Source: Spirochaetota bacterium
GTDB lineage: Bacteria; Spirochaetota; Brevinematia; Brevinematales; Brevinemataceae
Assembly: GCA_030154445.1 (NCBI GenBank)
Contig: JAGUQW010000002.1
Location: 124,001 to 188,000, forward strand
Direction: 5' to 3'
DNA: 64,000 bases
In this document: one piece after another, positions 3,301-47,908 of the stretch
Layout of the letters: every line of letters begins with the position of its first letter
Position numbering within the stretch: the first letter of the stretch is position 1
The notes under the pieces: generated by a model
Database searches by the model: none
The model's input: only the letters and a program-made list of their open reading frames with translations
Told to the model about the DNA's origin: nothing
Made by a program: the position numbers and the translations under genes

Positions 3301-5864
3301 TCAAGGTGTATTCCTAGTTGTACAGGTTGAAATACAGAAAGAGTATTGTTGTTAATTTCTGTAGATAGTGTAGAATCAGAGATAGTTTTTGCTTGAATAC
3401 ATAATTGATAATTTTTTCCAGAATAATCAGATAATTTTTTATTTATGATAATATCGGGTTTTTTGAGAGAGCTTTTTTGAGTATTTTTTAGTAATAATTC
3501 AGACAATTGAGGGTAAATATCTATAATAGGAGAATCATAAGGAGTAATTGGTTGAGCTGTTCCAAATTGATAGTAAGCGTATTTTTTACTGATAAAATTG
3601 AGTGGAGTTTTAGTAACAGTATACGAAATTGTTGATGGGAGTATTTCGCCGAATAAAAATTGAGGACGCAAAGAAAATACTAACTTTTCACCAAACAAAA
3701 TTTTTTGTTTGGGTGCTGAAAATACGATTTCTGTATTTTTTGGAGTAAGAGGATATACATTAAAAAAAGCTTGTTTATAAAAATCACTGCTGGTATTTTT
3801 TATTTTTATAGTGTATTGTCCAGAAATAAGAGTTTGTTTTTCGTTTAAGGTTATATTCAAAGATCCGTTAGAAGACCAAGAGCTAAGGGTATTGGTAATC
3901 ACTGTATTATTTGGATTTATAATAGTAATATCTACGGATTTAGTGAAAAAAGTGTTTTGACTAGTATAATAATTATTAGTTTTTGCACGAGCAATAGCAT
4001 GTATATGAACTTGTTCTCCTAATTTATAAGTAGGTCTGTCTGTAAATACCATACTATAAATGTGTTGTGTTGTTGTAATATCATTATAAAATAAACGAGG
4101 TGAACTAGAAAAGAAAAAAGTAGAATTAATACTGTTGAAGTAACTATCATCACCACTAAGAAAAGCAATTTCATTAAATTTGCTTGTATCTTTAGGTATT
4201 CCTATAAATATAGGTTTTTCTAGTGCTTTTAAGGGTAATTTTGCGTTTGGAACACGAAGAAATCCATCCGATTTAGTTCTTCCTAAATCTTGAAAAGAAC
4301 CTCTAATGGGATCCCAAATAGAAATCATTATATTTTCTAAAGGATTTTGAGTATCTATATCATGTGCTTGTAAAACAATATCTGATATAGATATATGAGC
4401 CATAAGACCACTCTGACTAGCTAATATTTTTGTAAAATTTGTATCTTTTGATGGCTGATCAGTATTTTGAATATTCATCAAAATAAGTGAGGTTTGATCT
4501 TCAAATATTTTAGTCAGATCGAATTCTTGCCAAGAAATTTGATCTATAGGAGAATTAATAGAAAAATTAGTTTTGTAAGTATTTACAGGCACATTTTTTC
4601 CATAAAGAGATAGTGCTGTATAATAAGCAGAATTAATTATTTGATAAGTAATAGTTATATTGGATACATTGACTGTTTGAAAAGGAACAATTGGATTTTT
4701 TCTATCTATATACAAAATATTTTTCATTTGACTAATAGCTGGTTTTTGATTTTGAATATCAAATTTGGCTGTGAAAACATTTGTTATTTTTTGACCATAA
4801 ATATCAAATAATTTTTTAGGTGTAAAAGATAACAAATATTCTGTATTTCCTACAAAATCTCCATATATTTGTATATTAGATTCTTTAATACTATAAGATA
4901 GATTAGACACAGCAGGTATTGTAGTCAGTATAGAATTTGTAACAGCAGTTTTTTTGATAGGGGTGTTATGAACAAGCCAAAGATCATCATTGATAGTTTT
5001 AGAAAGTAACTTTGGTTCTCTTTGATTAAGATAAGGGGTACTATTAAGTCCTAACCATTCGGGAGATTTATAAGTATCAAATTCGTAGATAAATGGCTTT
5101 AAAATTGAATTAGTGTTTATTTTGGAATAATCAATCTCAAGCTTGTAGCTGGTGTTTTTTTTTAATCCATAAGGAAAAATATAAATTTCATTATAGTTTG
5201 TTACGATACAGAAGGTAGAAGAATTTTTTTGATTAGTTCTAATAGCATATTTTAAGCGAAATTTTATGTTTTGATATTGATCGGATAAAGTCAACCCTTT
5301 TTTTAGTTCTTGAATTTTAATGGCTCTAGAAATAGATAAGTATATAGGACTATATAAATTTTTTGATTCTAGAGAAGCATAAGAAACTTTAAATTCTTTG
5401 CCTTTTATTATGAAAGGTGAAGAAGAACTTTGTTGATAATTAATACTAAGTGATACAGGAGCACCTGTTAGAGAAGTAATATTCGTGTTGTAAGACACTA
5501 TTATATCTTGATTTGGAGGTAACGGGGTATCCAAAGTATAAGTAAATTTTTTCCCACTGATAGTACGGATAGATCCTGATAAATTAGGAGTAAAGGAAAG
5601 ATTCATTAGTGTTAACCATTCATAAGAACTTTCTTCGTAAGAAGAAAATTTAATAATATCTTGATCAAAACAAAAAGAAATTTCTCGTTGTCCTGATTGA
5701 AGAAGAGCTTCTTGGAAAGTAGAACCTTGGATAGTTGTGTATTTATTATGGACAATTACCAATCCTATAATGAAAATAAATAATAGACAACAAAATGTAA
5801 TAAAATACATGTAATATGTACGGATCAATTTGTTGATACTAGATAAATTAGTACTAAAGCTCAT
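378..5864 (-). CDS. Alpha-2-macroglobulin family protein without thioester cysteine
   Basis: A very large (1828 residue) envelope protein. A hydrophobic segment at about residues 18-38 should anchor it in the inner membrane, with the rest in the periplasm. MG-type beta domains are shown by DRPTYKLGEQVHIHA and similar stretches, followed by the later KSNYLPKELVEIDL and FVRPDDQVTWGAYIRN regions typical of bacterial A2M. The family normally traps proteases through a Cys-x-Glu-Gln thioester. Here the aligned site reads SLYIEQILQR, with Tyr1402 in place of Cys and Glu1404-Gln1405 kept. It should therefore be a non-covalent trap or structural protein. The usual partner PbpC (penicillin-binding protein 1C) is not next to it. 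The start has AAGGA about eight bases upstream. It is transcribed alone. Confidence 0.88.
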   Translation of the reverse strand: MSFSTNLSSINKLIRTYYMYFITFCCLLFIFIIGLVIVHNKYTTIQGSTFQEALLQSGQREISFCFDQDIIKFSSYEESSYEWLTLMNLSFTPNLSGSIRTISGKKFTYTLDTPLPPNQDIIVSYNTNITSLTGAPVSLSINYQQSSSSPFIIKGKEFKVSYASLESKNLYSPIYLSISRAIKIQELKKGLTLSDQYQNIKFRLKYAIRTNQKNSSTFCIVTNYNEIYIFPYGLKKNTSYKLEIDYSKINTNSILKPFIYEFDTYKSPEWLGLNSTPYLNQREPKLLSKTINDDLWLVHNTPIKKTAVTNSILTTIPAVSNLSYSIKESNIQIYGDFVGNTEYLLSFTPKKLFDIYGQKITNVFTAKFDIQNQKPAISQMKNILYIDRKNPIVPFQTVNVSNITITYQIINSAYYTALSLYGKNVPVNTYKTNFSINSPIDQISWQEFDLTKIFEDQTSLILMNIQNTDQPSKDTNFTKILASQSGLMAHISISDIVLQAHDIDTQNPLENIMISIWDPIRGSFQDLGRTKSDGFLRVPNAKLPLKALEKPIFIGIPKDTSKFNEIAFLSGDDSYFNSINSTFFFSSSPRLFYNDITTTQHIYSMVFTDRPTYKLGEQVHIHAIARAKTNNYYTSQNTFFTKSVDITIINPNNTVITNTLSSWSSNGSLNITLNEKQTLISGQYTIKIKNTSSDFYKQAFFNVYPLTPKNTEIVFSAPKQKILFGEKLVFSLRPQFLFGEILPSTISYTVTKTPLNFISKKYAYYQFGTAQPITPYDSPIIDIYPQLSELLLKNTQKSSLKKPDIIINKKLSDYSGKNYQLCIQAKTISDSTLSTEINNNTLSVFQPVQLGIHLENTTVFNNEAIAFKIIALNSITEEIITNIQSVLTINKIEKLTLGKWSFITNIIPLKQYYSRTIFSKTMKNGQYSYQYIPSQEGNYQVIVHTYSNNTKISSSTSFSVLKSESSSYNTQLYMELDNTTYQSGDTAFLHISNPFDKARLLLFIERDSIREFHSIILSNNIFTYPIALTHQDIPGINITAILSSISNTKNIPLTLFGNTSLTVRPNEKQLSFQINTSKSNYLPKELVEIDLMVYNAQNKQIDGEAVVIIRDKAVLEQTDTDIPNPIDIFYNTRYPGFSTWHSGKQLLDTKNLTNTTAISPMPISSLNRKSIAFANPISTSLMDNIESSSQVRSNFPYTIYYNSSVQLSRNKKTKISFQLPDNISGFDITVIAYDQNELFGKTNYNFTSSKKLMIDEIIPNFVRPDDQVTWGAYIRNFSDSTIDAKVTLDNVDSYFTKNILIPKKSYAIVTNTNTIKNIERSWNILVDSTNFSDNFIKNIPVILDNPWTYSSYSGYLNNTTNITLETDLENNLEQEITLQLSSTPMIQMKNSLNKILTSESLYIEQILQRLLLFIGNEDLFITNQLIDWNKKKLNTLLQDDLNSLSSYYINSTNIATSPLGNIITSNPMILLQMYESLQLANKHNYQIDSNLFNNLTKTTQQISKKNKNTSANDALIQIYALNILASNKLLDKESFKNIYPILSSYNNTHALILDTMHLLNFPLQDISKQTLLLMNQTTETGTTILIKNSNSRFIASTLIKYYGDYQDGFKILNGLDIQKQDNIFVFVNFLQKYPSDNTYKVDITINKKTFTLDNTNNKITIPIKEKNISITMDTEQKKIYYYLVYGSIPKKNPTQNNSGYQIKKNIYNQSTTNSIVDNNLIFGEKYIIELEITPQASGSQQIEIIDPLYGGIILDTPTKQKEYLKNATYIAKHDKIHIFTKVNKSKIIIRYLVIAQTFGIWTAPPSSVQFITSPDVFGFQSQDNITIK

Positions 5865-16688: not shown

Positions 16689-16727
16689 AAAATTTATAAT
16701 AATAACTATTAAATATTGGGAGTATAT

Positions 16728-17498
16728 ATGTTTGATTCTATTATTTTTACTAATGCTTTATGGGTCTTTAGTTTATCATCTATTATTGTTTTTTGTGTAT
16801 TAATATTTGGTAAGCTTTTTGCTCCCTATGGAAAAATGACCTCTAATGTTTGGGGATCTGTCATGATACCGGCTCGCTTAGGCTGGATTATTATGGAATC
16901 ACCAACATCAATTTTATTTGTTGTATTTTTATTACTATGTGATCATTTAAATAATGGTTTGATAGTACTTTTTTTTGTATGGCAGTTTCATTATTTTTAT
17001 AGAAGTTTTATCTTTCCATTTTTAACACGACATAGTAAGCCTATGCCTATTTTGATGATGATTTCAGGGATGTCTTTTCAATTAATTAATATTTATTTTC
17101 AAGCAGGATGGCTTTTTTTTGTTGCTCCTAAAGATATGTACGGAGGTGATTATTTACAATCACCTCAGTTTATTATAGGCTTTGTTATATTTTTAATAGG
17201 TTCATTTATTAATAGGCAGGCAGATTATATTTTAAAGAATCTTAGAAATCCTGGTGAAACTGAATACAAAATACCTTATGGTGGACTATATCGTTTTATT
17301 TCTTGTCCTAATTATTTAGGAGAAATTATAATATGGCTTGGTTGGGCAATTTTACTCAAATCATGGGTAGGTGTATCATTTTTTATGTGGACTGTAGCAA
17401 ATCTAGTGCCAAGAGCTTTAACAAGTCATAAATGGTATAAAGAAAATTTTACTAATTATCCCTCTGAAAGAAAAGCGATAATTCCTGGAATTTTATAA
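16728..17498 (+). CDS. Steroid 5-alpha-reductase family / DUF1295 membrane protein
   Basis: A 256-residue polytopic membrane protein with about six or seven hydrophobic helices. The C-terminal part carries the 3-oxo-5-alpha-steroid 4-dehydrogenase signature: YKIPYGGLYRFISCPNYLGE, then HKWYKENFTNYPSERKAIIP at the end, where NAD(P)H is bound in family members. The substrate is unknown; bacterial relatives act on lipid or isoprenoid-type double bonds. I choose the ATG at 16728 because TTGGGAG immediately before it is the ribosome site. It is the last gene before a very long terminator. Confidence 0.85.
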   Translation: MFDSIIFTNALWVFSLSSIIVFCVLIFGKLFAPYGKMTSNVWGSVMIPARLGWIIMESPTSILFVVFLLLCDHLNNGLIVLFFVWQFHYFYRSFIFPFLTRHSKPMPILMMISGMSFQLINIYFQAGWLFFVAPKDMYGGDYLQSPQFIIGFVIFLIGSFINRQADYILKNLRNPGETEYKIPYGGLYRFISCPNYLGEIIIWLGWAILLKSWVGVSFFMWTVANLVPRALTSHKWYKENFTNYPSERKAIIPGIL

Positions 17499-31004: not shown

Positions 31005-32165
31005 TTAATTTTTTCTTCGTAACAAACGAGAGATATTTAATAATAAAGTAGGTAAAAGATGATCATCTTTTATTACAGATCTAGTAATGTGTTGAAAAAC
31101 TTCTTCTATGGCTATCACTAATTCTTCTAATTCTATAGTAGATATATTAATAAATAGTTGACTGTAAGGAGTATAGAGAGGATGAGGAAGTTCAAGAGAT
31201 ATATTTCTTATTTTGTTTTGGCGACAACGCAGACTGTTTTCCATACATTTACTTAGTTCTTCCAAAAATAAAATACTATGTCCGTTTTTACTTAATTTTT
31301 CTGAAAATTGTATAAAAAGAATACCATGTTCTATATTGGAAGTACATTGAGTGAAAAACTCAGTAATCAAATTAAATTTAATATCAGAGAGCTTATATAA
31401 GCTCTCCTTCATTATTTCTATAGAAGATGTAAGTTTTTGTGGATTAATATCAAGAAATTCTAATTCATGATAGACAGGTTTTTTGAAAGTGATTTTTAAA
31501 GTTCGTGAAAGAATAGTAGGAAGAATTTTTTTTGGGTTTTGTGCAGTAATAATTACCCAATGATGTGGATAAGGTTCTTCAATAAGTTTTAGCGCGGCAT
31601 TTTGTGTTGTTGCATCAGCTGTATCAAAATCTGCGAGTATGCTTACACGACCCAAAGATTGTGTAGAATGAAATTTAATGGCTTCTCTAATAACATTAAT
31701 AGGAATTCCTGTTTTTTTATTAAGAACAGCTGTAAAACTTATCAATTGAGCAATGAATTTGTTATCTTTAGGAATGTGTCTTGTTTGAATAATTTCATCA
31801 AGTTGTTCTTTGATATTTATTAATTTAATTCCTGTAGGCATAGTAATAGTCTCATCTAAAGTAGCAATCATATTAATTCTTCGTTGTAATAAATATAACC
31901 AAGTCCAAGTTTCTTCACTTATAGATGATTTGGTGAGGAAATACTCAGTTTTTAAAGCACATAAGTCATTTCGAAAATAAAAAAAATTACTACTAGATAG
32001 AGGATTTTCTTGTAAAATATATTGAGCTAGATCCAAGGCACAAGCGACTTTACCCCATCCAGAATCTCCAGTAAATAATAATGTTCGACTTTGTTTTGTA
32101 TTTAATACAATACCTTGCAATAAGGCAAAGAAAGCTTCTGTGTTATTTTTTCTAAATTGATGCAC
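31005..32165 (-). CDS. holB: DNA polymerase III delta-prime subunit
   Basis: A 386-residue clamp-loader AAA+ protein. The P-loop is GDSGWGK. The strongly conserved tract ATTQNAALKLIEEPYPHHW, then IITAQNPKKILPTILSR, carries the sensor region and the SRC-like motif of delta-prime. The zinc-binding cysteines of the E. coli protein are absent, and there is an unusual insert between the P-loop and Walker B. Only two bases separate it from the recJ stop, so it is expressed with recJ. Confidence 0.85.
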   Translation of the reverse strand: MHQFRKNNTEAFFALLQGIVLNTKQSRTLLFTGDSGWGKVACALDLAQYILQENPLSSSNFFYFRNDLCALKTEYFLTKSSISEETWTWLYLLQRRINMIATLDETITMPTGIKLINIKEQLDEIIQTRHIPKDNKFIAQLISFTAVLNKKTGIPINVIREAIKFHSTQSLGRVSILADFDTADATTQNAALKLIEEPYPHHWVIITAQNPKKILPTILSRTLKITFKKPVYHELEFLDINPQKLTSSIEIMKESLYKLSDIKFNLITEFFTQCTSNIEHGILFIQFSEKLSKNGHSILFLEELSKCMENSLRCRQNKIRNISLELPHPLYTPYSQLFINISTIELEELVIAIEEVFQHITRSVIKDDHLLPTLLLNISRLLRRKN

Positions 32166-32167
32166 AA

Positions 32168-34399
32168 TTATTTTCCATCAATATCTATCAACTGTAGTCG
32201 TACTTCTTGAGTATTATTCCAATCATTAATCTCTGGAATTCCAACAATATCAAAAGAAGTATGGTTTTTCAACTCTTCCCATCGCTTGCTAAATCCCCAT
32301 GCAATAACATTGAAAGGAGTTTTATCTTTTTGGAAAATAAAAGTCATATGTTCTTTATTTTTGCCTATATACTTCGCTTCGATGAGAGTAACATTTTTGA
32401 TTAAAAAATTTGGAAATGGATTTTTACTTCCAATAGGATTAAATAATGTTTGAAGATAGTTAATATTTTTAATATTTAAGGAAGATAAATCAGTAAGTTC
32501 TATATCGATTTCTAAAGGATTTTTCAGATTAGTTGAAGTCCAATTTGTCATATATTTAGTAATATTATCTTTGAATTCAGGAATATTCTCTTGAGAAATA
32601 ACGAATCCCCCAGCAGCTTTATGCCCACCAAATTGAGAAAATAAATGACTAGAGTTTTGTAAAAAATTGATTACATCAAAAGCACCTGTAGAGCGTACAG
32701 AACCAGAAGCTGTTTCTTCATCTGATGACAATGCTACAATAATTATGGGGACTTGGAATTGATTTGTTAATTTGGTAGCAATAAGTCCTGTCAATCCACG
32801 ACTAATATTATTAGACATAATAAACACATGTTTTTTTGTAAGAATATCATCAAGATTGGTAGATCTGACAATTTCTTCTTCAAGAGATGTTATTAATTCT
32901 TTACGCTCTTGATCTTTTTGAATAAGTTGTTCAACAAGTTCATTTGCTTTGTGAATACTATTAGTAATTAATAATTCTACCACAAGACTAGCTTGACCCA
33001 AACGCCCAGGTGAATTAATAATAGGACCTAAAGTCCAACCTATTGCTTTTGCATTGAGAGAATCCATAATTTTTAAACGACGAAGTAGAGTGATAAGTCC
33101 AGTAGTAGTAAGTTTGATATTTTCTTGTTCTGTACCTACACGAACAATATTACGATTTTCATTAATAAGAGGCATGATATCAGCGACAGTTCCAATAGCA
33201 GCTAAAGGAAGCAACTCTGATAAAATTTGTTGAATAGGACGAGAGCGAGTGAGAGACATGCGTCTGTATACTTCAGCATTCAAAATAACATCATTCAATG
33301 CTCTATGTAATTTAGTACGATCTACATAAATTCCAAGATGTTCACCGACCGTAAGAAGTTTGTGAGATTTAAGTTGTTTGAACATTACACGAGCCATAGG
33401 TAAAGTATCAATAGGTGTGTTAGTGATTTGTTTGTTGAAATATTTTTGTAATTGAATTTGAAGAAATTTCATATCAAATCCAATAATATTATGTCCAATA
33501 ATAGGTCTATCACCAATAAAATCAAGAAAATTAGTAAGAGCTTCTACTATAGGAATTCCGTTTTCTTGTAGCATTTTTTGAGTAATATTCGTAACTTCTA
33601 TTATTATAGGCTCTAGTATTTTTTCTGTTTGAATAAGACATTGATATTCTTTTATTATAATACCATTTTTGGAAATAACAGCTGCAATTTCTATGATATC
33701 ATCTTGTTCTGGATCAAGTCCTGTAGTTTCAATATCAAAAAAAACAAGTTCTTGATTATAATCATCTAATAAATAAGATTCACTAAGAGCTTGAGCTAAT
33801 TTTAATGCAACTCCTGCTCCAGCAAGATAAGGAAAAGGATAATTATTTAATTTTGGATTAACAAGAGCAAATGCTGTAGGAAGAGTATCTAAAGGCTCGT
33901 GATGATCAGTGATAATAACATCAATCCCCAATTCTGTAGCATAACGACACTCTTCTACTGCTGTAATACCACAGTCTACAGTAATAATAAGAGTAATATT
34001 TTGAGTTTTTGCTTGATCAATTGCTGCTTTTGACATTCCATAATGATCATCACCTTCTGGTACTTTAAAAGAAATATCACCCTGAAAACGATTTATAATA
34101 CGATATATAATAGCTGTAGATGTCACTCCATCTGCATCTTTGTCGCCGAAGATAAGAATTTTTTCTTTATTTGCAATTGCTTTTTGTATGCGTACGACAG
34201 ATTTATCTATATCTATTAACGCAAAAGGGGATGGTAAAGATAGTAATTTTGGATAGGTAAAATCCATCATGGTAGGGTAGCTATCAAAACCTCGATTTTT
34301 AGCAATGTTAAGTATAAATTCTGGAAGAAAAAGAGCATTCTTAATATCATGATGTAATGGTACATCTGAGCGACGAAGGTTCCATTCAAAAAAAGGCAT
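32168..34399 (-). CDS. recJ: RecJ single-strand exonuclease with an inserted DEDDh exonuclease domain
   Basis: A 743-residue protein with a full RecJ frame: motif I DKDADGVTS (Asp86, Asp88, Asp90), VDCGIT, the DHH motif at Asp165-His167, and the DHHA1 motif FGGHKAAGGF (His593). Between the DHH segment (ending GAGVALKLAQAL) and the LLPLAAIGTVADIMP segment lies an inserted domain at about residues 215-380. It carries all DEDDh proofreading-exonuclease motifs: FDIETTG (Asp222, Glu224), HNIIGFDMKF, and HRALND with His365 and Asp370. Typical RecJ is about 560-580 residues, so the extra length is explained by this insert. RecJ acts 5'-3' in recombination and mismatch repair; DEDDh enzymes act 3'-5', so both polarities may reside in one chain. 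It heads the recJ-holB operon. Confidence 0.92.
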   Translation of the reverse strand: MPFFEWNLRRSDVPLHHDIKNALFLPEFILNIAKNRGFDSYPTMMDFTYPKLLSLPSPFALIDIDKSVVRIQKAIANKEKILIFGDKDADGVTSTAIIYRIINRFQGDISFKVPEGDDHYGMSKAAIDQAKTQNITLIITVDCGITAVEECRYATELGIDVIITDHHEPLDTLPTAFALVNPKLNNYPFPYLAGAGVALKLAQALSESYLLDDYNQELVFFDIETTGLDPEQDDIIEIAAVISKNGIIIKEYQCLIQTEKILEPIIIEVTNITQKMLQENGIPIVEALTNFLDFIGDRPIIGHNIIGFDMKFLQIQLQKYFNKQITNTPIDTLPMARVMFKQLKSHKLLTVGEHLGIYVDRTKLHRALNDVILNAEVYRRMSLTRSRPIQQILSELLPLAAIGTVADIMPLINENRNIVRVGTEQENIKLTTTGLITLLRRLKIMDSLNAKAIGWTLGPIINSPGRLGQASLVVELLITNSIHKANELVEQLIQKDQERKELITSLEEEIVRSTNLDDILTKKHVFIMSNNISRGLTGLIATKLTNQFQVPIIIVALSSDEETASGSVRSTGAFDVINFLQNSSHLFSQFGGHKAAGGFVISQENIPEFKDNITKYMTNWTSTNLKNPLEIDIELTDLSSLNIKNINYLQTLFNPIGSKNPFPNFLIKNVTLIEAKYIGKNKEHMTFIFQKDKTPFNVIAWGFSKRWEELKNHTSFDIVGIPEINDWNNTQEVRLQLIDIDGK

Positions 34400-38562: not shown

Positions 38563-38891
38563 AGAATATCCTTATTATAAAATAATTATTGAATATAGTG
38601 TACTATATTTAAATATAAAAAACAAGGGTGTATGTAACTAAGTAATTAATCTTTAATAATTGATGTATTTTGGTATTTGTCCATTTATATTTATAAAGAA
38701 GGGACATTTTTAAAAAACTATTTTACAAATTATTCGTATTAAAATTATTTTTATAAAGTGTTTTAATATATTGAGTTAGATTATTATTAAATATTTAATC
38801 TTCAGTAAGATAGATATTGACTTTTTAATATTGGTATTATATAATAAATTATAGAGTATTTTGTGCTATATAATAATATTTGGAGGAAATT
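38563..38891. other. 329-base divergent intergenic region
   Basis: The region lies between the minus-strand unknown gene and the V-ATPase operon. It holds the V-ATPase promoter and several weak AT-rich dyads, such as AATATAGT/ACTATATT near 38595. I find no small frame with a ribosome site and no RNA gene. Confidence 0.55.
38817..38845 (+). promoter_or_regulatory. V-ATPase operon promoter
   Basis: TTGACT (38817-38822), 17 bases, TATAAT (38840-38845), 46 bases ahead of atpK. A second TATAAT at 38869-38874 could be an alternative -10. Confidence 0.72.
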
Positions 38892-39338
38892 ATGTTTTAC
38901 ATGTGGACTTTATTTGCAATAGTTTGTTTGACTTGTTTGGCTGGAGTGACAATTCATTGGACAAGAAATCATGTGTTGATACCCGAGGTAGTTGCCAAAA
39001 GTTTAGTTGGTGGTTTTACAGGGTTCTTTTTTATTATATTAGCGGTTGTTATAGCAAGTATTTTTAATATTTCTCCAGTATATGCTTCAGAAGCTACAGG
39101 TGCTCTTATATTATCTTCTGAAGCGTATGGCTTGGGATTTTTAGGAGCTGGTATCTCTGTTGGTTTAGCTTGTATTGGTACAGGTATTGCAACAGGGATG
39201 TCGGCCTCTGCAGCTATAGGAGCTGTTAGTGAAGATCCAAAAATGTTAGGTACTAGTTTACTCTTTGTTGGACTTTCAGAGGGTATAGCTATCTATGGAT
39301 TGATTGTTGCCATTATGATTTTAGGAAGATTAGGATAA
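38892..39338 (+). CDS. atpK: V-type ATPase proteolipid subunit K
   Basis: The 148-residue membrane rotor subunit. Four helices form two hairpins. The second hairpin is a canonical c-type unit (GLGFLGAGISVGLACIGTG, then SASAAIGAVSEDP and VGLSEGIAIYG) with the ion-binding Glu130. The first hairpin is diverged and has no acidic ion site. TGGAGG sets the ATG at 38892; a TTG upstream lies inside that site. It is the first gene of the operon, and its stop codon sits in the loop of a terminator-like hairpin. Confidence 0.93.
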   Translation: MFYMWTLFAIVCLTCLAGVTIHWTRNHVLIPEVVAKSLVGGFTGFFFIILAVVIASIFNISPVYASEATGALILSSEAYGLGFLGAGISVGLACIGTGIATGMSASAAIGAVSEDPKMLGTSLLFVGLSEGIAIYGLIVAIMILGRLG

Positions 39339-39355
39339 GTCCTAATCTTTTTTTT
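39326..39355 (+). terminator. Intrinsic terminator overlapping the atpK stop codon
   Basis: The stem AAGATTAGGA (39326-39335) pairs with TCCTAATCTT (39340-39349) across a four-base loop, and a T-run continues to 39355. The atpK stop TAA is in the loop. It has all the features of a terminator yet stands inside the operon, so it may give partial termination and more atpK mRNA. Confidence 0.75.
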
Positions 39356-39382
39356 AATAGATTTATTTCTAAGGATTATATT

Positions 39383-39682
39383 ATGAAAGTGTTAGCACTG
39401 GTTGGAGAGCAGGTATCTACTGCTTTTAGTTTAGCTGGAATGGAGACGATATCTCCATCTAATCATCAAGAATTATTAGAAGTTTTTGATAATGCTATCC
39501 ATCAAAAAGACTTAGCTCTTTTGGTAATATCAGCTCGTTATGCAATAGCTTTAAAAAAAGAAATAGAAGTAGTTCGTCTATCAAAAAATACTGTTATTAT
39601 CCTTGAGATTAGCTCATCTAAAGGTGATTTTAATGCTGGTGAAAAATTAATGCAGCATATAAAAAAAGCAATAGGTCAATAA
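39383..39682 (+). CDS. atpF: V-type ATPase subunit F
   Basis: A 99-residue central-stalk subunit. The Rossmann-like pattern of subunit F is present: VLALVGEQVSTAFSLAGME, the central LLVISARYAIALKKEI and VIILEISSSKGDF. It links the rotor shaft D to subunit C and the membrane ring. AAGGAT precedes the start. It is the first gene after the internal terminator. Many spirochaete V-ATPase operons that I know of show no obvious F gene, so its clear presence is noteworthy. Confidence 0.85.
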   Translation: MKVLALVGEQVSTAFSLAGMETISPSNHQELLEVFDNAIHQKDLALLVISARYAIALKKEIEVVRLSKNTVIILEISSSKGDFNAGEKLMQHIKKAIGQ

Positions 39683-39707
39683 TAATAGTATTAATTAGGG
39701 GATCTCT

Positions 39708-40298
39708 ATGGCGTTGAAAGATATGGTCACTTACATCCAAGAACAAGTTCGTGTAGAAATAGAAGATCAGTTTAATAGAGTAAAACTCGAAGGAACTAGA
39801 TCTCTTATTGCATTAGGTGAAGAATTAGAATTAGATCAAGAAAACAAAATTTATGAAAGTACAAATCATTACTTAAAACTAGAGAGTATGCTCAAAGCAG
39901 AGCAAGATTTTGTTATAACTAACAAAAAACTTAATTTGGAACAAGAGTTTACAGATTTTTTACTTATAGAACTAAAAAAATCCTTGTTAGATTATGTACA
40001 AATGAATAGACAAGAATATCAACAAATACTACAATCATGGCTTAAAAAAGTTAATGAAGCACTGAACGGTATAAAAATAACTATTACTGTTAATGAGAAT
40101 GATGTAGATTTTGTAAAACAATTATTATTATCTTTATCTATTTCAGGACATACGAAAAGCTCACAAAAAATAAAAGCTGGATTATATGTAGAAGGTGAAA
40201 GTGGAGTTGTTGTTGATTTAACTTTTGAAACATTATTTATAGAAAGAAAAGAACAATTATTGAATATTTCTATGCAGATATTGAAGGAGAGCTTGTGA
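39708..40298 (+). CDS. atpE: V-type ATPase subunit E
   Basis: A 196-residue peripheral-stalk subunit. The N-terminal half is a long helix (MALKDMVTYIQEQVRVEIED onward) and the C-terminal part ends in the globular E-domain pattern VEGESGVVVDLTFETLFIER. It pairs with the coiled-coil G-type subunit encoded later in the operon to hold the A/B hexamer still. Its stop overlaps the GTG start of atpA by four bases. Confidence 0.88.
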   Translation: MALKDMVTYIQEQVRVEIEDQFNRVKLEGTRSLIALGEELELDQENKIYESTNHYLKLESMLKAEQDFVITNKKLNLEQEFTDFLLIELKKSLLDYVQMNRQEYQQILQSWLKKVNEALNGIKITITVNENDVDFVKQLLLSLSISGHTKSSQKIKAGLYVEGESGVVVDLTFETLFIERKEQLLNISMQILKESL

Positions 40299-42085
40299 AA
40301 TTAATAGGAAAAATCACTCGTATCAATGGACCTCTTGTAACAATGGAAGTCCTTGATATTATCCAATTAATGGAAATGGTTTATGTTTCTCATCTCAAAT
40401 TAATTGGTGAAATTTTAAGTATTGAAGAAAAATCTGCTGTTATTCAAGTATATGAAGCAACAGAAGGTCTAAAATTAGACGATGTTGTCTATGGATCAGG
40501 CTTACCTTTATCTGTAGAATTAGGACCTGGATTATTATCTCAAATATTTGATGGTATCCAACGACCTTTAAAATCAATTGCAAAAGAATCAAAAAGTATT
40601 TTCTTAAAAAGAGGGATCTATGTGTCACCTCTTGATAAAAGTAAAAAATGGGACTTTACTCCTAAAATATCTGTAAATGACAAACTAGATAAAGGGGCTA
40701 TTATAGGAACAGTACCAGAAACAGAATTGGTATTACATAGTGTTATGATCCCACCAAATATGTCAGGAACAGTAAAATCTATTGTAAGTGCTGGTGAGTA
40801 TACGGTAGATGAAGTTATTGGAACATTAGAGGATGAGCATGGGACTATTCACGAACTCAAATTAGCCCATCGGTGGCCTGTAAAATTAGCAAGACCTTAT
40901 AAAACAAGATATTTGCCTACAGAACCATTAATTACAGGACAAAGAATTGTCGATATTTTCTTTCCTGTGGCAAAGGGTGGAGCTGTTGCAATTCCTGGTG
41001 GATTTGGCACAGGTAAAACAATTACTCAACATCAATTAGCTAAATGGTCTGATGCTAAAATTGTTGTTTATGTAGGGTGTGGAGAGCGTGGAAATGAAAT
41101 TACGGAAGTATTAGAAGAATTCCCCCAATTAATAGACCCACATACTGGAAGACCACTTTTTGATAGAACAGTAATGATAGCAAATACTTCGAATATGCCT
41201 GTAACAGCTCGTGAGGCTTCAATTTATACAGGTATTACTATTGCTGAATATTATCGTGATATGGGTTATGATGTAGCTGTAATGGCCGATTCATCATCTC
41301 GTTGGGCTGAAGCATTGAGAGAATTGTCAGGACGCTTAGAAGAAATTCCTGCAGAAGAAGGTTTTCCAGCATATCTAGGCTCTAAATTAGCATCATTTTA
41401 TGAAAGAGCGGGAAATGTTCAAGTGCAAAGTGGTATGAATGGATCAGTAACAATGATTGCTGCGGTATCACCTCCTGGAGGAGATTTCTCTGAACCTGTT
41501 ACTCAAAACACAAAACGTTTTGTTCGTGCTTTTTGGCAATTAGACAAAGCTTTGGCATCAGCAAGACACTATCCTTCTATTAATTGGATTCATAGTTATA
41601 GTGAATATGTAGATTATGTATCTGCTTGGTGGATAAAGAATATAGATGTAGATGCAATAACGATAAGGCAAGAGGCGTATAATTTGTTATTACGGGAAGA
41701 AAAATTACAAAAAATTGTAAAATTAATAGGTCCTGATGCTTTGCCAGATAGTGAACGACTAGTACTTGAAGTAGCTCATATGCTCAAAGAAGGATTTCTC
41801 AAACAAAACGCCTACGATGATGTAGATATGTATACTGTTCCTAAAAAACAAATTGCTATTCTTAAATTAATTATATTGTTTTATAAAGAGACAGAATCTA
41901 TTATTCAAATGGGTGCTCCTATTTTTGAAATTCGTGCATTACAATGTTTTCCTATGATTATCCGTGCACGCTTAGATATTAAAAATGATGAGCTTGATCA
42001 ATTTGATAAACTCTCTCTATTAATAACAGATGAACTTAATAGTTTGCGTTTAAAATATGATAGAGCTATTAAGGGAGCAAACTGA
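40295..42085 (+). CDS. atpA: V-type ATPase catalytic subunit A
   Basis: The 596-residue catalytic subunit. The Walker A is PGGFGTGKT, with the arginine and acidic catalytic region [15 protein letters not shown] and [14 protein letters not shown] following. The V-type-specific non-homologous insert (about residues 110-190, including [12 protein letters not shown] and MSGTVKSI) is present, separating it from F-type beta. The start is GTG, overlapping the atpE stop, so translation is coupled. The stop shares one base with the atpB ATG. Confidence 0.97.
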
Positions 42086-43476
42086 TGGATTTAAAAATTA
42101 AAAAATCTTATAAAGGCTTGAAATCACTTAATGGTCCTTTGATGGTACTAAAATCTATTCCTGATATTTCTTTTGGTGAATTAGCTGAAGTTACTTTAAA
42201 AGATGGGTCTACAAAACTAGCTGTCGTTATTGAAGTAAATAAAGAATCTATTATATTGCAATTATATGGACATACAGCAGGTATTGAACCAGATACGACA
42301 CAAATCAAATTTTTACAACAAACTTTTCAAATGGGCGTTTCTGAAAAAATGTTGGGTAGAGTATTTGATGGTTTAGGAGCTCCTATTGATGGAATTCGTA
42401 TGCCTGATGCAGAAGAATACAGAGATATTAATGGTGAACCTTTAAATCCTGTCGAAAGAGAATATCCACATGATTTTATTCAAACAGGTATTTCAGCAAT
42501 TGATGTCATGAACACTCTAGTTCGGGGACAAAAATTACCTATTTTTTCTAGTGCAGGTCTTCCTCACAATCAGCTAGCAGCACAATTAACAGCTCAAGCA
42601 AAATCAAAAAGTGGAAATCCTTTTGTCGTAGTATTTGCAGCTATGGGTATCAGACACGATGATGCAACTTATTTTATTGATTCGTTCAAAGAAACAGGAG
42701 CTCTTAATACAACAGCATTATTTTTGAATTATGCAGATGATCCCGCTATAGAAAGATTAGTTACTCCAAGAGTAGCATTAACTTTGGCAGAATTTTTAGC
42801 TTATGATAAAGGAATGGATGTGTTAGTGATTCTTACTGATATGACAGCCTATGCTGAGGCATTAAGAGAAATAGCAGCAGCTCGTGGCGAAGTTCCTTCT
42901 CGTAAAGGATTTCCAGGTTATATGTATTCTGATTTTTCTACGATTTATGAAAGAGCTGGTAGGGTAAAAGGGAAAGACGGATCTGTTACCCAAGTACCTA
43001 TTTTAACAATGCCTGGTGATGACATCACACACCCAATTCCTGATTTAACAGGTTATATTACAGAAGGGCAAATTGTATTAGATAGAAACTTAAATGGTCA
43101 AAATATTCTACCTCCTATTAATTTGATGCCATCTTTATCTCGATTAATGAAAGATGCTATCGGTGAAGGATTGACTAGAGATGATCATCCAAAATTATTT
43201 ATGCAATTATATGCCTCCTATTCAAAATCTTTAGAAGTTCGTGCTATTGCAGCTATTGTATCAGAGGATGAAATGTCTCATTTAGATCGTTTATATTTGA
43301 AATTTGGGAGAGAATTTGAAAATGTATTTATTAATCAAAGTTTTCATGTAAATAGATCTATTGAAGAAAGTTTGAATCTTGCATGGGAAATTTTATCTAT
43401 TTTTCCTAAAAGTGAATTGACAAATATAAGTACTAAAGATCTAATTCGTTACTACAAAGGTAGTAATGATGATTAA
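42085..43476 (+). CDS. atpB: V-type ATPase subunit B
   Basis: The 463-residue non-catalytic regulatory subunit. It lacks a Walker A lysine, as expected ([15 protein letters not shown] replaces it), and shows the V-type B signatures [47 protein letters not shown] and [14 protein letters not shown]. It alternates with A in the head. It overlaps the atpA stop by one base. Confidence 0.97.
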
Positions 43477-43511
43477 TAATGTTGAATAATGATAAATTAT
43501 AAAGGTATAAT

Positions 43512-44180
43512 ATGGCACAGAAAAATATAACTCCTACAAAAAGTAATTATATAACACTTACAGAAGATTTGATTTTAGCCAAAGAAGGACACGGACTTTT
43601 AGAGCAAAAGCGTGAAGTGTTGGTTATCAATCTAACACACCTTGTTTCTCAAATTAGAGAAGCTCGTACAAAACTTGATGAGAAATTATTTACAATTTTT
43701 TCACAATTATCATTAGTGCGTCTTGAAAGTGGGAGTATTATATTAGATTTGATTGTAACTAGTATAGTTCAAGATTATGAAGTAGATGTTTTGTCTTATT
43801 CTGTAATGGGCGTTGTTGCACCAAAATTGTTTTTTACAGAAAAACTATCTAAAAATAAATCTGTTGTACCTATGGGTATTTCAGGAACCAGTCCAAATTT
43901 TGATAAATTACTGCAGTTGACGAATGAAATCAAACCTTTAATGGCAGAAGTTGCTTATTTAGAAAGTACGGCATGGAAACTAATTACAGAAATCAAAAAA
44001 ACACAAAGACGAATTAACGCATTAGAAAATTTTGTTATACCTGATACTCAAGATACAATAAAATTTATTAAAGAAATATTAGAAGAAAAAGATAGAGAAA
44101 CATTATTTCAAATAAAAAGAATTAAAGATAAGCAACGTAAAAATCAAGCTCTTACAAAGGAGAATTTTCATGATATGTAA
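43512..44180 (+). CDS. atpD: V-type ATPase subunit D
   Basis: The 222-residue central rotor shaft, two long antiparallel helices. The family start ITPTKSNYITLTEDLILAKEGHGLLEQKR and the C-terminal RINALENFVIPDTQDTIKFI are easily recognised, here quoted in part only as TPTKSNY and RRINALENF. The C-terminus is Lys-rich. Its last 11 bases overlap the start of the Usp-like gene, whose ribosome site AAGGAG lies inside atpD. Confidence 0.95.
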   Translation: MAQKNITPTKSNYITLTEDLILAKEGHGLLEQKREVLVINLTHLVSQIREARTKLDEKLFTIFSQLSLVRLESGSIILDLIVTSIVQDYEVDVLSYSVMGVVAPKLFFTEKLSKNKSVVPMGISGTSPNFDKLLQLTNEIKPLMAEVAYLESTAWKLITEIKKTQRRINALENFVIPDTQDTIKFIKEILEEKDRETLFQIKRIKDKQRKNQALTKENFHDM

Positions 44181-44619
44181 AATATTTGTTCCTATTACAG
44201 GATCTGATGAAAGTAAATTTTCTATTGATAAAGCAGTAGAAATAGCAGCTTCTCTTAATGCAAAAATTGTTGCTATAAATGTACTAGATCAAGACTCTTT
44301 AGCAAAATTACAACGTTATAAAATTTTTATAGAAGAAGAATCAGATGTTTTTGGTGAAAGTCTTAGACGAGATGCTGAAAAATATCTTAAATATGCACAA
44401 AATATAGCAGATTCTTTTCATGTAGCTATAGAAACAGTTCTATTAGAGGGAGAACCTTATACTGAGATTTATAAGTTCATAAAAAATGATCCATCTAGTC
44501 AAAAGTTTGTTATGATTACTTCTACTAAAAATAGTGATAGTTTTATAGAATCATTTGGAGTCTTAGAAAAGAAATTATTACGCTCAGGTTTATCTATTAT
44601 GATTGCAGGAGATAAGTAA
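44170..44619 (+). CDS. Universal-stress-protein-like protein in the V-ATPase operon
   Basis: A 149-residue UspA-fold protein. The start KIFVPITGSDESKFSIDKAV and the AIETVLLEGEPYTEI segment match the family, where a Rossmann-like alpha/beta fold dimerises. The ATP-binding signature G-x2-G-x9-G-S/T near the C-terminus is not intact; the region reads MITSTKNSDSFIESFG, so nucleotide binding is doubtful. It lies between atpD and the G-type stalk gene, overlapping the first by 11 bases and abutting the second. I infer a regulatory or assembly role for the ATPase. I know of no V-ATPase operon where this is standard. Confidence 0.82.
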   Translation: MICKIFVPITGSDESKFSIDKAVEIAASLNAKIVAINVLDQDSLAKLQRYKIFIEEESDVFGESLRRDAEKYLKYAQNIADSFHVAIETVLLEGEPYTEIYKFIKNDPSSQKFVMITSTKNSDSFIESFGVLEKKLLRSGLSIMIAGDK

Positions 44620-44928
44620 ATGTCTATTATTGATCAAATTTGTGATATTGAAGAAACTCTTATCAAGATGCGTAAAGATAGTGAACAAAAAATTCTAGAA
44701 ATAAATAACGATTTTTCTGTAAAAAAAGCTAAAATGAGAGAACATTTTGTCCAAGAATTAGCTCAAAAAAATACAGAACTTCAACAAGATATGTATGTGC
44801 GTGTAGAAGAATATAAAACAAATCTACTGAAATCCAGTGGAAATACTAGAGAAATATTAACTTCTGAATTTGAAAATAAAAAAGAAAACATTTTACAAAT
44901 TGTTTGTAAAATGTTTTGGAAAGAGTAG
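44620..44928 (+). CDS. V-type ATPase G/H-type peripheral stalk subunit (coiled coil)
   Basis: A 102-residue protein that is almost entirely a charged helix (IEETLIKMRKDSEQKILEIN, then VKKAKMREHFVQELAQK), as in AhaH/subunit G of archaeal-type ATPases. Sequence conservation in this subunit is low, so the assignment rests on size, coiled-coil pattern and location. It follows the Usp-like stop directly, with a ribosome site inside that gene, and precedes atpC. It would pair with subunit E to form the stator. Confidence 0.75.
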   Translation: MSIIDQICDIEETLIKMRKDSEQKILEINNDFSVKKAKMREHFVQELAQKNTELQQDMYVRVEEYKTNLLKSSGNTREILTSEFENKKENILQIVCKMFWKE

Positions 44929-44932
44929 AGAT

Positions 44933-45925
44933 ATGATATCAGTACAATATATACCGCTATCTGTCCGTGTTAGATCTTGGAATAAATCTTTATTTTCTCA
45001 AAAAGAATTAGAAGAATGTATCCAAGAAGATGCAACGACTTTTATGATTAAAGTTGCTAATAAAGAAAAACATCAAATACTAGATACAACATCTTCTCAA
45101 AAATTTATTTTATCTACTCAAAATTCAATTTTAGAATATTTAAAGGTTGCTATGTCAACTTCTTCTGGATCTAGTAAGCGTTTTATTAAAGAAATGTTCT
45201 ATGAATTTGAAATCTATAATCTTAAAAATGTTGTTCGTATGATTATTTCTCAAAAATTTCAAAATCATTTTTATCCTTATCAATTTACGGATACTATTAC
45301 TCTGAAAAAACTTTCTGAAATCAGAAGTATTAGTGAACTTATTCAATTATTAGATTATACGCCTTACAATATGTTCAGGCCTATTTTGGAACAAGTAGAA
45401 CAAGAAAAAAATGCTTTATATTGGGAATTAGCCTTAGATAATTACTATATTAATCAAGTTTATCATGTTTCACAAAGTTTGGATATAGATAGTAAAAAGG
45501 CTATTAAAAAATTATTTTTAATTCCATTATTACACGAGCGTTTGGTATCTTTGTATAGATATAAATTTCATTATAATGTAGCATCAACAGAAGCGTTAAA
45601 ATATGTACCAAATTTGACGGCATTGATACCTACTGATAAATGGAATGACTTAGCTTTTACAACATCACATATAGATTTTTATAAAATATTAGCTGAAATA
45701 GGTTATATAAATGAAGATTTACCTAATAATGCAATTACACTAAAAATGACATTTCAAAAAGAATTAGAGAGAAGTTGTGTTCGTTTTTTACATAAAGATC
45801 TCACTAGTATTGCCTCTTTTTTAGCTTTCATACAATTAAAAAAAATACAATATAAAAAAATAATAACGATATTAGAAGCAAAATCTTTACAAGTAAATAA
45901 AATAGATATTATGCAATTTTTATAA
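44933..45925 (+). CDS. atpC: V-type ATPase subunit C
   Basis: The 330-residue AC39-type socket subunit that seats the central stalk on the membrane ring. The family pattern is recognisable in FYEFEIYNLKNVVRMIISQK, followed later by FLAFIQLKKIQYKKI and TILEAKSLQ. I choose the ATG at 44933, four bases after the preceding stop; a longer frame from 44870 would overlap the stalk gene by 59 bases and has no ribosome site. Conservation is weak, as is usual for this subunit. Confidence 0.83.
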   Translation: MISVQYIPLSVRVRSWNKSLFSQKELEECIQEDATTFMIKVANKEKHQILDTTSSQKFILSTQNSILEYLKVAMSTSSGSSKRFIKEMFYEFEIYNLKNVVRMIISQKFQNHFYPYQFTDTITLKKLSEIRSISELIQLLDYTPYNMFRPILEQVEQEKNALYWELALDNYYINQVYHVSQSLDIDSKKAIKKLFLIPLLHERLVSLYRYKFHYNVASTEALKYVPNLTALIPTDKWNDLAFTTSHIDFYKILAEIGYINEDLPNNAITLKMTFQKELERSCVRFLHKDLTSIASFLAFIQLKKIQYKKIITILEAKSLQVNKIDIMQFL

Positions 45926-45964
45926 AATTAGAAATAAGGATATTAATTAAAGAGGGTTAACTTT

Positions 45965-47908
45965 ATGTTTGTAACACAAAAAATGATTTTATTAGATATC
46001 TTACTTCTTCAAAAAGATGTGGAGGATGTTTCTAAATTAATTATAGAATCAAATTTTTTTGAACTTTCTGCGTATTCATCATTAGCATCAGATACTGAAA
46101 ACAAATGGTCTCACGAAAATACAACAGGTAAGAAAAAATTAATTTCTGATCTTCAAAAAAGTAATCAAGAGTTAGAATTGTTTTTTCATCCCTATAGAAC
46201 TGTATCTCTATTAATAACAAAGGAAACCCCTGCTTATACTATTCCTTTTATGAGTGATACTATTCGTCAATATAAAACTAAAAAAGATCAATTAGAAGAA
46301 AGATATTATCTTATTAAAAAAAACAAAGAAAAAGTTGCTATCAAAATAGCAGGACTTCGTATGTATATGGATACTCAGCGTAACAATAAAAAAGTGATTG
46401 TTAATGAATCTGCTACTATGTATTCTATTTTAGGACTGATTAATATTTCTAATTTATCTATCTTGAAACAAGAATTTAGTCGTTTTAATGGGGAATTATT
46501 AACAGAAGGACATGTTAATGATTCTGAAATTGTATTCATTACTATTCCTGAAAATCAAAAAGAAGAATTAACTACTTTATTAGAACAATTATATTTTATA
46601 AATTATGGTCTTCCTGAAGAATTTTTCGGTGAAGGTATCGCAAATATGATGAAACTAGGATTAGAGTATACTATAATTTGTGATCAAGAAGAGATGTTAG
46701 AGTTTGAAATCAAAAAAATAACGCCTGTTATTATTGATATTTTAGATAATATTGCAGATTCTTTAAAATTATATGCTAAGATATTAGAAGTGAGTCATTC
46801 AATGAAACAAGCAGGACATTTTGTACTTTTATCAGGATGGATTGCAGCAAGTAAATATAGAGAATTACAAAAAAAATTAAAAACATTATGTGGTGATATT
46901 TTTGAAATAACAGTAACAGATACAGAAACATTTAGAATAGAAGTAGATATTCCTACTAAATTACAAAATCCAAAAATATTTAAACCTTTTGAACAATTAG
47001 TAACTACCTTCGGAATTCCCAATTATAAGGAAATTGATCCTACAATTCTTTTTGCTGGATTATATGTATTTATGTATGGAGCAATGTTTGGTGATGTAGG
47101 ACAAGGTGCTTTATTATTATTATGTGGTATTTTTGGAAAATTATTTAAAAAACAATCTAATTTTAATATAATTTTTGGGCTAATGATATGGGTAGGGATG
47201 TCGTCTACTATTTTTGGTGTTCTTTATGGGTCTTATTTTGGATATGAATCTACATTGTATACTTGGGTACCAGAACCTTTGTGGTTAAGTCCTATGCATA
47301 ATATCAATACGATATTAATGTATGCAATTTTTTTTGGAATAGGTGTTATTTCTTTTAGTTATGTGTTAGGTATTATTAATGCTATCCGTATGAGAGAATG
47401 GGATGTATTGATTTTTTCTCATAAAGGTTTAATTGCATTTATTATTTATATTATTGTATTAAGTATGGGTTATATGATGATTAAAGGTGTAACTATTCCT
47501 ATTTCTTTGTTTTATATTTTTGGAATTTTAAGCTTATTCTTAGGATTAGAAAGAATTTGGGAAGCTTTATTTTATGGACATGGCTCTATTAAAGACTGGT
47601 GGATGGGATTTTTTGATATGTTTGAATTTTTCTTATCTATGCTCACTAATACTCTTTCCTTTGTAAGAATAGGAGCGTTTGCATTGACACATACAGCTTT
47701 AATGATGGCAATATTCACACTGAGAGACCTGGCTGGAGGCGATACTTTAATGGCTTATATAATAGTAATTATAGGCAATATTTTTGTTATTGGTATGGAA
47801 GGATTCATTGTAGGTATCCAAACTTTACGATTAGAATATTATGAATTTTTTATGCGTTTCTTTAGAGGAACTGGTCGTCTATTTAAACCTATTGTGTATA
47901 AATCTTAG
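45965..47908 (+). CDS. atpI: V-type ATPase subunit I (a-type stator)
   Basis: The 647-residue subunit: a cytoplasmic half (residues 1 to about 350, with coiled coil) and a membrane half with seven or eight helices. Hallmarks are YVFMYGAMFGDVGQGALLLL, GVLYGSYFGYES and SMLTNTLSFVRIGAFALTHT, which holds the essential Arg of the proton or sodium path, and FIVGIQTLRLEYYEFFMRFF at the end. A 39-base gap separates it from atpC. It is the last ATPase gene in the operon. Confidence 0.95.
   Translation: MFVTQKMILLDILLLQKDVEDVSKLIIESNFFELSAYSSLASDTENKWSHENTTGKKKLISDLQKSNQELELFFHPYRTVSLLITKETPAYTIPFMSDTIRQYKTKKDQLEERYYLIKKNKEKVAIKIAGLRMYMDTQRNNKKVIVNESATMYSILGLINISNLSILKQEFSRFNGELLTEGHVNDSEIVFITIPENQKEELTTLLEQLYFINYGLPEEFFGEGIANMMKLGLEYTIICDQEEMLEFEIKKITPVIIDILDNIADSLKLYAKILEVSHSMKQAGHFVLLSGWIAASKYRELQKKLKTLCGDIFEITVTDTETFRIEVDIPTKLQNPKIFKPFEQLVTTFGIPNYKEIDPTILFAGLYVFMYGAMFGDVGQGALLLLCGIFGKLFKKQSNFNIIFGLMIWVGMSSTIFGVLYGSYFGYESTLYTWVPEPLWLSPMHNINTILMYAIFFGIGVISFSYVLGIINAIRMREWDVLIFSHKGLIAFIIYIIVLSMGYMMIKGVTIPISLFYIFGILSLFLGLERIWEALFYGHGSIKDWWMGFFDMFEFFLSMLTNTLSFVRIGAFALTHTALMMAIFTLRDLAGGDTLMAYIIVIIGNIFVIGMEGFIVGIQTLRLEYYEFFMRFFRGTGRLFKPIVYKS

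Follow-up and report, generated by a model that had tools for sequence, protein, structure and literature searches.

What could a RecJ nuclease do that carries a second, DnaQ-type exonuclease domain within its DHH core? RecJ is single-strand-specific and proceeds 5'-3', and structures are known for the bacterial enzymes of D. radiodurans and T. thermophilus; DnaQ-type domains proceed 3'-5'. The question arises from a gene of a Spirochaetota bacterium of the family Brevinemataceae (G000, a 1.5-Mb draft genome), located in a contig stretch of 64,000 nucleotides which is called here the window. A sequence-only reading of the window had proposed that the DHH core of RecJ encloses a complete DEDDh domain, with gene coordinates which proved correct (Table 1). 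The gene lies on the minus strand, where the open reading frame starts with ATG and contains no internal stop; read on the plus strand, the same positions are full of stops.

The whole protein scores 465.7 bits against the NCBIfam recJ model TIGR00644, above the curated cut-off of 396.9, and with DHH, DHHA1 and OB domains all present it belongs to the RecJ family. The Pfam DHH match is restricted to profile positions 1-104 of 125 and stops before a complete RNase_T domain (PF00929, E 1.1e-28, 101.3 bits against a gathering threshold of 24, profile 1-164 of 164); the DHH domain is thus interrupted. The inner domain is in turn a member of PF00929: it is full-length, has all of D, E, D, H and D, and is modelled with an RNase H-like fold. 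Its closest curated family is the PolC-type exonuclease (138.7 bits; NCBIfam, PRK00448 and TIGR01405). No polymerase domain was found in the protein by Pfam and NCBIfam scans, the PolC models matching by their exonuclease part alone. To draw the boundaries of the insert, 88 RecJ ORF records from spirochaetes, including some duplicates, were aligned; the helix GAGVALKLAQAL stands before it and the block LLPLAAIGTVADIMP after it. In the best-matching RecJ of the PDB (8y30), chain residues 216 and 219 pair with query residues 214 and 398; as this chain runs straight across the insertion point, a normal RecJ is uninterrupted there. The nesting put forward in the sequence-only reading is upheld by Pfam, by TIGR00644 and by the invariance of the DEDDh residues (see below). 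By sequence, the product is a complete RecJ in which a DEDDh exonuclease of PolC/DnaQ type, itself complete, interrupts the DHH domain.

Table 1. Positions in the window of the predicted recJ gene, its domains and catalytic codons, its neighbour, and other genes
Feature	Position	Strand	Residues	Basis or remark
recJ with nested DEDDh exonuclease	32168..34399	-	743 aa	ORF, Pfam, NCBIfam
DHH domain, first part (D86/D88/D90, D142, D165-H166-H167)	33779..34162	-	80-207	Pfam PF01368; residues invariant
Inserted segment	33230..33763	-	about 213-390	RecJ alignments; gap against PDB RecJ
DEDDh exonuclease domain (RNase_T)	33266..33745	-	219-378	Pfam, fold model, invariant residues
DEDDh catalytic codon	33734..33736	-	D222	
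DEDDh catalytic codon	33728..33730	-	E224	
DEDDh catalytic codon	33473..33475	-	D309	
DEDDh catalytic codon	33305..33307	-	H365	
DEDDh catalytic codon	33290..33292	-	D370	
DHH core, second part (LLPLAAIGTVADIMP, D407)	33170..33214	-	396-410	Alignments
DHHA1 domain with GGHKAAGG	32546..32818	-	528-618	Pfam
RecJ OB domain (RecJ_OB)	32183..32509	-	631-739	Pfam
holB-like clamp-loader delta' gene	31005..32165	-		Two bases downstream of recJ; Pfam, NCBIfam
Bacterial alpha-2-macroglobulin-like protein	378..5864	-	1828 aa	
Steroid 5-alpha-reductase-like membrane protein, here in a spirochaete	16716..17498	+		PF02544, E 5e-49
V-type ATPase subunit genes	38880..47908	+		Sampled ORFs: C and AC39 matches, E-subunit sub-threshold

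A frameshift or misassembly could in principle have fused two genes, and this was the sequencing error against which the earlier reading had to be checked. Beyond G000, however, the same single frame recurs in two uncultured Brevinema MAGs with published contigs (L034, L035), and other Brevinematales genomes have it too. All 13 genomes searched of Brevinematales have the nested architecture; among them one copy is truncated at a contig end, and the gene of G012 is split in two pieces, which points to errors splitting the fusion, not creating it. Nothing was found in support of an artefact, which was rejected through this recurrence and has a probability close to nil. A nesting unique to Brevinema was rejected as well, since it is present throughout Brevinematales and, in catalytically complete copies, in families f17 and f26 (393 genomes across Spirochaetota). 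As intact nested copies are shared by the whole of Brevinematales and by two further families of spirochaetes, the architecture is old within the phylum and not peculiar to this genome. Beyond Spirochaetota, the comparison extended to the sequences of the PDB, to phage records and viral contigs, and to named genomes in a single pattern-based scan. The scan of named genome contigs returned the two Brevinema MAGs only, and otherwise DEDDh-only matches. No nested insert was found in the RecJ genes of phage records and viral contigs, where match lengths are too short to hold one.

Conservation of the two catalytic sets was then compared. D222, E224, D309, H365 and D370 are invariant in 15 of 15 nested copies, which diverge to about 34% whole-protein identity. 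Wherever the nested copies extend over them, the RecJ residues D86, D88, D90, D142, D165, H166, H167, D407 and H593 are likewise unchanged, and the RecJ catalytic motifs (DxDxD, D, DHH, D, GGH) are also invariant in 69 other spirochaete RecJs. Both sets agree with the positions given in the sequence-only reading or with family predictions. Between the two closest species, dN/dS is 0.11 for the insert and 0.07-0.09 for the remaining protein, and the insert is under purifying selection in Brevinemataceae. A model of the insert alone, built with 34 homologues, has a mean pLDDT of 91.4 and a pTM of 0.86. Among solved structures, the best folds are a DnaQ domain from S. thermophilus (TMq 0.82, Foldseek E 1.4e-16), PolC exonuclease domains, the DinG exonuclease of S. 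aureus and E. coli epsilon (2gui, TMq 0.79). The insert is predicted with high confidence to fold as a DEDDh domain. A full-length model (AlphaFold, three close sequences) reaches a pLDDT of 39.5, too poor for placing both active sites.

The best explanation, to which we give a probability of about 0.6, is that the protein would be a two-headed single-strand repair nuclease, with a RecJ core working 5'-3' and a nested DEDDh domain working 3'-5'. The RecJ core would resect single strands with 5' ends; the 3' single-stranded ends or flaps encountered on the same substrate would be trimmed by the nested domain. This would happen as mismatches are excised, gaps repaired or forks restarted. The two activities and their polarity are inferred from the respective families, and so is a role in repair. 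The conservation of both catalytic sets makes it plausible that the enzyme works on the two ends of DNA. A setting for mismatch excision exists, since MutS1 and ExoVII are retained in the genome.

Several known systems share part of this design. Bacterial RecJ (TIGR00644) has the same DHH, DHHA1 and OB domains and all the same catalytic residues; the difference is the extra DEDDh exonuclease of about 165 residues which here splits the DHH core. The exonuclease domain of PolC (2p1j, 9qpc) is of the closest curated family, has the same fold and is likewise nested in another catalytic domain, PHP in that case (PMC3919608), but the host here is RecJ and not a polymerase, with no covalent tie to DNA synthesis. 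DnaQ, the epsilon subunit of Pol III, has the same DEDDh residues and fold, whereas the domain studied here is an insert of RecJ and not a separate subunit, lacks a conserved clamp motif and is nearer in sequence to the PolC exonuclease. DinG of S. aureus and B. subtilis is also a repair enzyme with a DnaQ-type 3'-5' exonuclease (PMC12345164, PMC12525004), but its DEDDh domain is an N-terminal fusion to a helicase and is not nested in a nuclease of opposite polarity. No description of a RecJ with an internal DnaQ-type domain was met in the literature searched (subscription journals not covered), so that a previous characterization, which the sequence-only reading had left to be looked for, did not emerge. 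Within this literature, an exonuclease lying inside a second one whose expected polarity is opposite would be new.

The alignments of spirochaete RecJs, which represent some 40 families, show that the insertion point is not peculiar to intact copies. In most other families RecJ has an insert at the identical point, usually shorter and without the catalytic set (e.g. L019, L064, L068). Between the two flanking blocks, complete copies have a spacing of 181-188 and the Brachyspira-like f14 has one of about 181. The Treponema-like families f22/f42/f49 and the Borrelia-like f36 have about 150; several other families fall at 108-139 and a few at 42-100, these family labels being inferred except for Brevinemataceae. 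Ordinary RecJ spacing, 12-13, is found in f7, f13 and f18. When the inserts of the Treponema-like families, f49 and f36 were compared with intact inserts by profile-profile alignment, a probability of 89.5% was obtained (P 1.9e-6, 105 columns), with a score of 41.7 against at most 18.3 in 40 column-shuffled versions. Tested singly in the same way, the inserts of f36, f14 and f5 gave no significant match. Pfam detected no RNase_T in the sampled inserts of other families; those of f14 retain D-x-E at the first motif and have lost the full DEDDh set. The Treponema-like inserts are likely to be decayed exonucleases; for the remaining ones, among them the Borrelia-type, Brachyspira-type and f5 inserts, such an origin is unproven.

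In a tree of the RecJ core, the intact copies fall into two clades with good support, Brevinematales and f17+f26, which lie among families with other inserts. The nested exonuclease domains themselves cluster together (support 96/94), apart from most stand-alone DEDDh domains. Their group also includes one long viral branch and a stand-alone domain of family f7 (L117), and to this extent a single origin is not clean. L117 is a DEDDh protein of 182 aa encoded in G019, whose RecJ is without insert; it may possibly be a donor or an excised copy of the nested domain. The best fit suggested by these comparisons is one early insertion followed by repeated catalytic loss: RecJ probably acquired an active DEDDh domain a single time, at an early stage of spirochaete evolution, and the activity of this domain would have been retained in Brevinematales, f17 and f26, the catalytic residues being lost in most other families.

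This persistence of inserts without catalytic residues in most families indicates that an insert can be useful without catalysis. It raises the alternative that the insert is mainly a structural or binding platform, with marginal catalysis. A precedent is found among RecJ relatives: Cdc45 and archaeal GAN are RecJ-fold proteins, and in Cdc45 the DHH and DHHA1 domains are separated by an additional one, in its case a non-catalytic three-strand/helical module for replisome contacts (PMC4873980). Against a mainly structural insert stand the complete DEDDh set in every nested copy in spite of their divergence and the confidently modelled active-site fold, and we consider a mere platform improbable.

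A link with replication had been proposed in the sequence-only reading on the basis of the next gene, holB. The two-base gap is confirmed, and the adjacency is kept in f1, f3 and f4, three of the four families of the order. The holB match is weak (TIGR00678, 64.6 bits, under the cut-off; PF13177, E 1.2e-19), family f2 has short holB-like matches only, further from recJ, and no holB was seen near the nested recJ of f17 and f26. The gene pair hints at co-regulation of recJ with the clamp loader, no more.

A stronger link with replication than the holB neighbour is provided by the polymerase itself. Nine metal ligands, HHDHEH[C/H]DH, define the PHP proofreading site of DnaE (PMC12926913). They read HHDHEHCDH in 17 of 17 other spirochaete DnaE1s; in the four Brevinemataceae genomes, each with a single DnaE, they read HQRYKTDPL, HHRYKTDPL, HQKFKTDPL and HQHRQSDPK. 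Seven to eight of the nine ligands are lost (L135 on contig C17 of G000; L147, L148, L133), and the PHP proofreading site is, by its ligands, destroyed in all four. The RecJ insert is the sole PF00929 domain of G000. In the four Brevinemataceae drafts no other DEDDh domain or stand-alone DnaQ was found even at E<=10, no PolA-type DEDDy 3'-5' exonuclease domain was recognisable (G000-G003), and no PHP protein exists besides DnaE; the DEDDy domain was found in 3/4 other genomes of the order tested (comparison set G004, G005, G007). These absences are drawn from genomes 79-95% complete, but a gap shared by the assemblies is unlikely as four independent drafts agree. With the PHP site dead and no stand-alone DnaQ, PolA-type DEDDy domain or second PHP protein, the RecJ insert is the sole DEDD exonuclease that could be recognised in Brevinemataceae, and likewise their one recognisable candidate for a proofreader.

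The nested domain of Brevinemataceae might consequently be read as a replicative proofreader, performing epsilon-type 3'-5' editing for the PHP-dead DnaE, either in trans or through a tether at the fork, which may be e.g. the clamp loader or the inactivated PHP domain of DnaE. A lineage whose sole DnaE is PHP-dead would then edit through an exonuclease carried on a repair nuclease, a tentative proposal. It draws on the contrast between the four Brevinemataceae and the 17 other DnaE1s, on the lack of any second candidate in these genomes, on the purifying selection which still acts on the insert and on the adjacency of holB. It also agrees with a 2026 survey of bacterial polymerases, according to which some bacteria that have neither an active PHP site nor DnaQ 'may possibly use noncanonical proofreaders' (PMC12926913), in a text with no mention of RecJ or Brevinema. 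Chlorobi are listed there as having no known proofreader. However, the domain is equally intact in f2-f4, f17 and f26, where every examined DnaE1 has an intact PHP site, so that standing in for PHP cannot have been its original role. RecJ shows no conserved clamp-binding motif, and incomplete drafts underlie the absences on which the argument depends. We regard a proofreading role as possible but unlikely.

The same losses could instead mean that Brevinemataceae are without polymerase-linked proofreading, mismatch repair carrying the load and the RecJ insert being unrelated to fork fidelity. MutS1 is present as this would require, and neither a stand-alone DnaQ nor a PolA exonuclease domain was found beside the dead PHP. 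In a published tree Brevinema andersonii is the longest branch within its clade (PMC12236494), as faster evolution would give. On the other hand, the DEDDh residues are perfectly kept while the same lineage lost other proofreading or exonuclease sites, which is not the pattern predicted by a general relaxation. This alternative, a serious one though somewhat unlikely, is compatible with the two-headed repair nuclease, as is a proofreading role of the insert.

If both sites of the two-headed repair nuclease work, the protein would be a natural single polypeptide in which one single-strand exonuclease is enclosed by another of opposite polarity. A concrete proofreader candidate would then also be available for PHP-inactive, DnaQ-less bacteria, a gap stated in the survey of polymerases (PMC12926913). 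More widely, the comparison of inserts suggests that a decayed exonuclease makes up at least part of the extra RecJ segment seen in many other spirochaetes, with Treponema and Borrelia probably among them.
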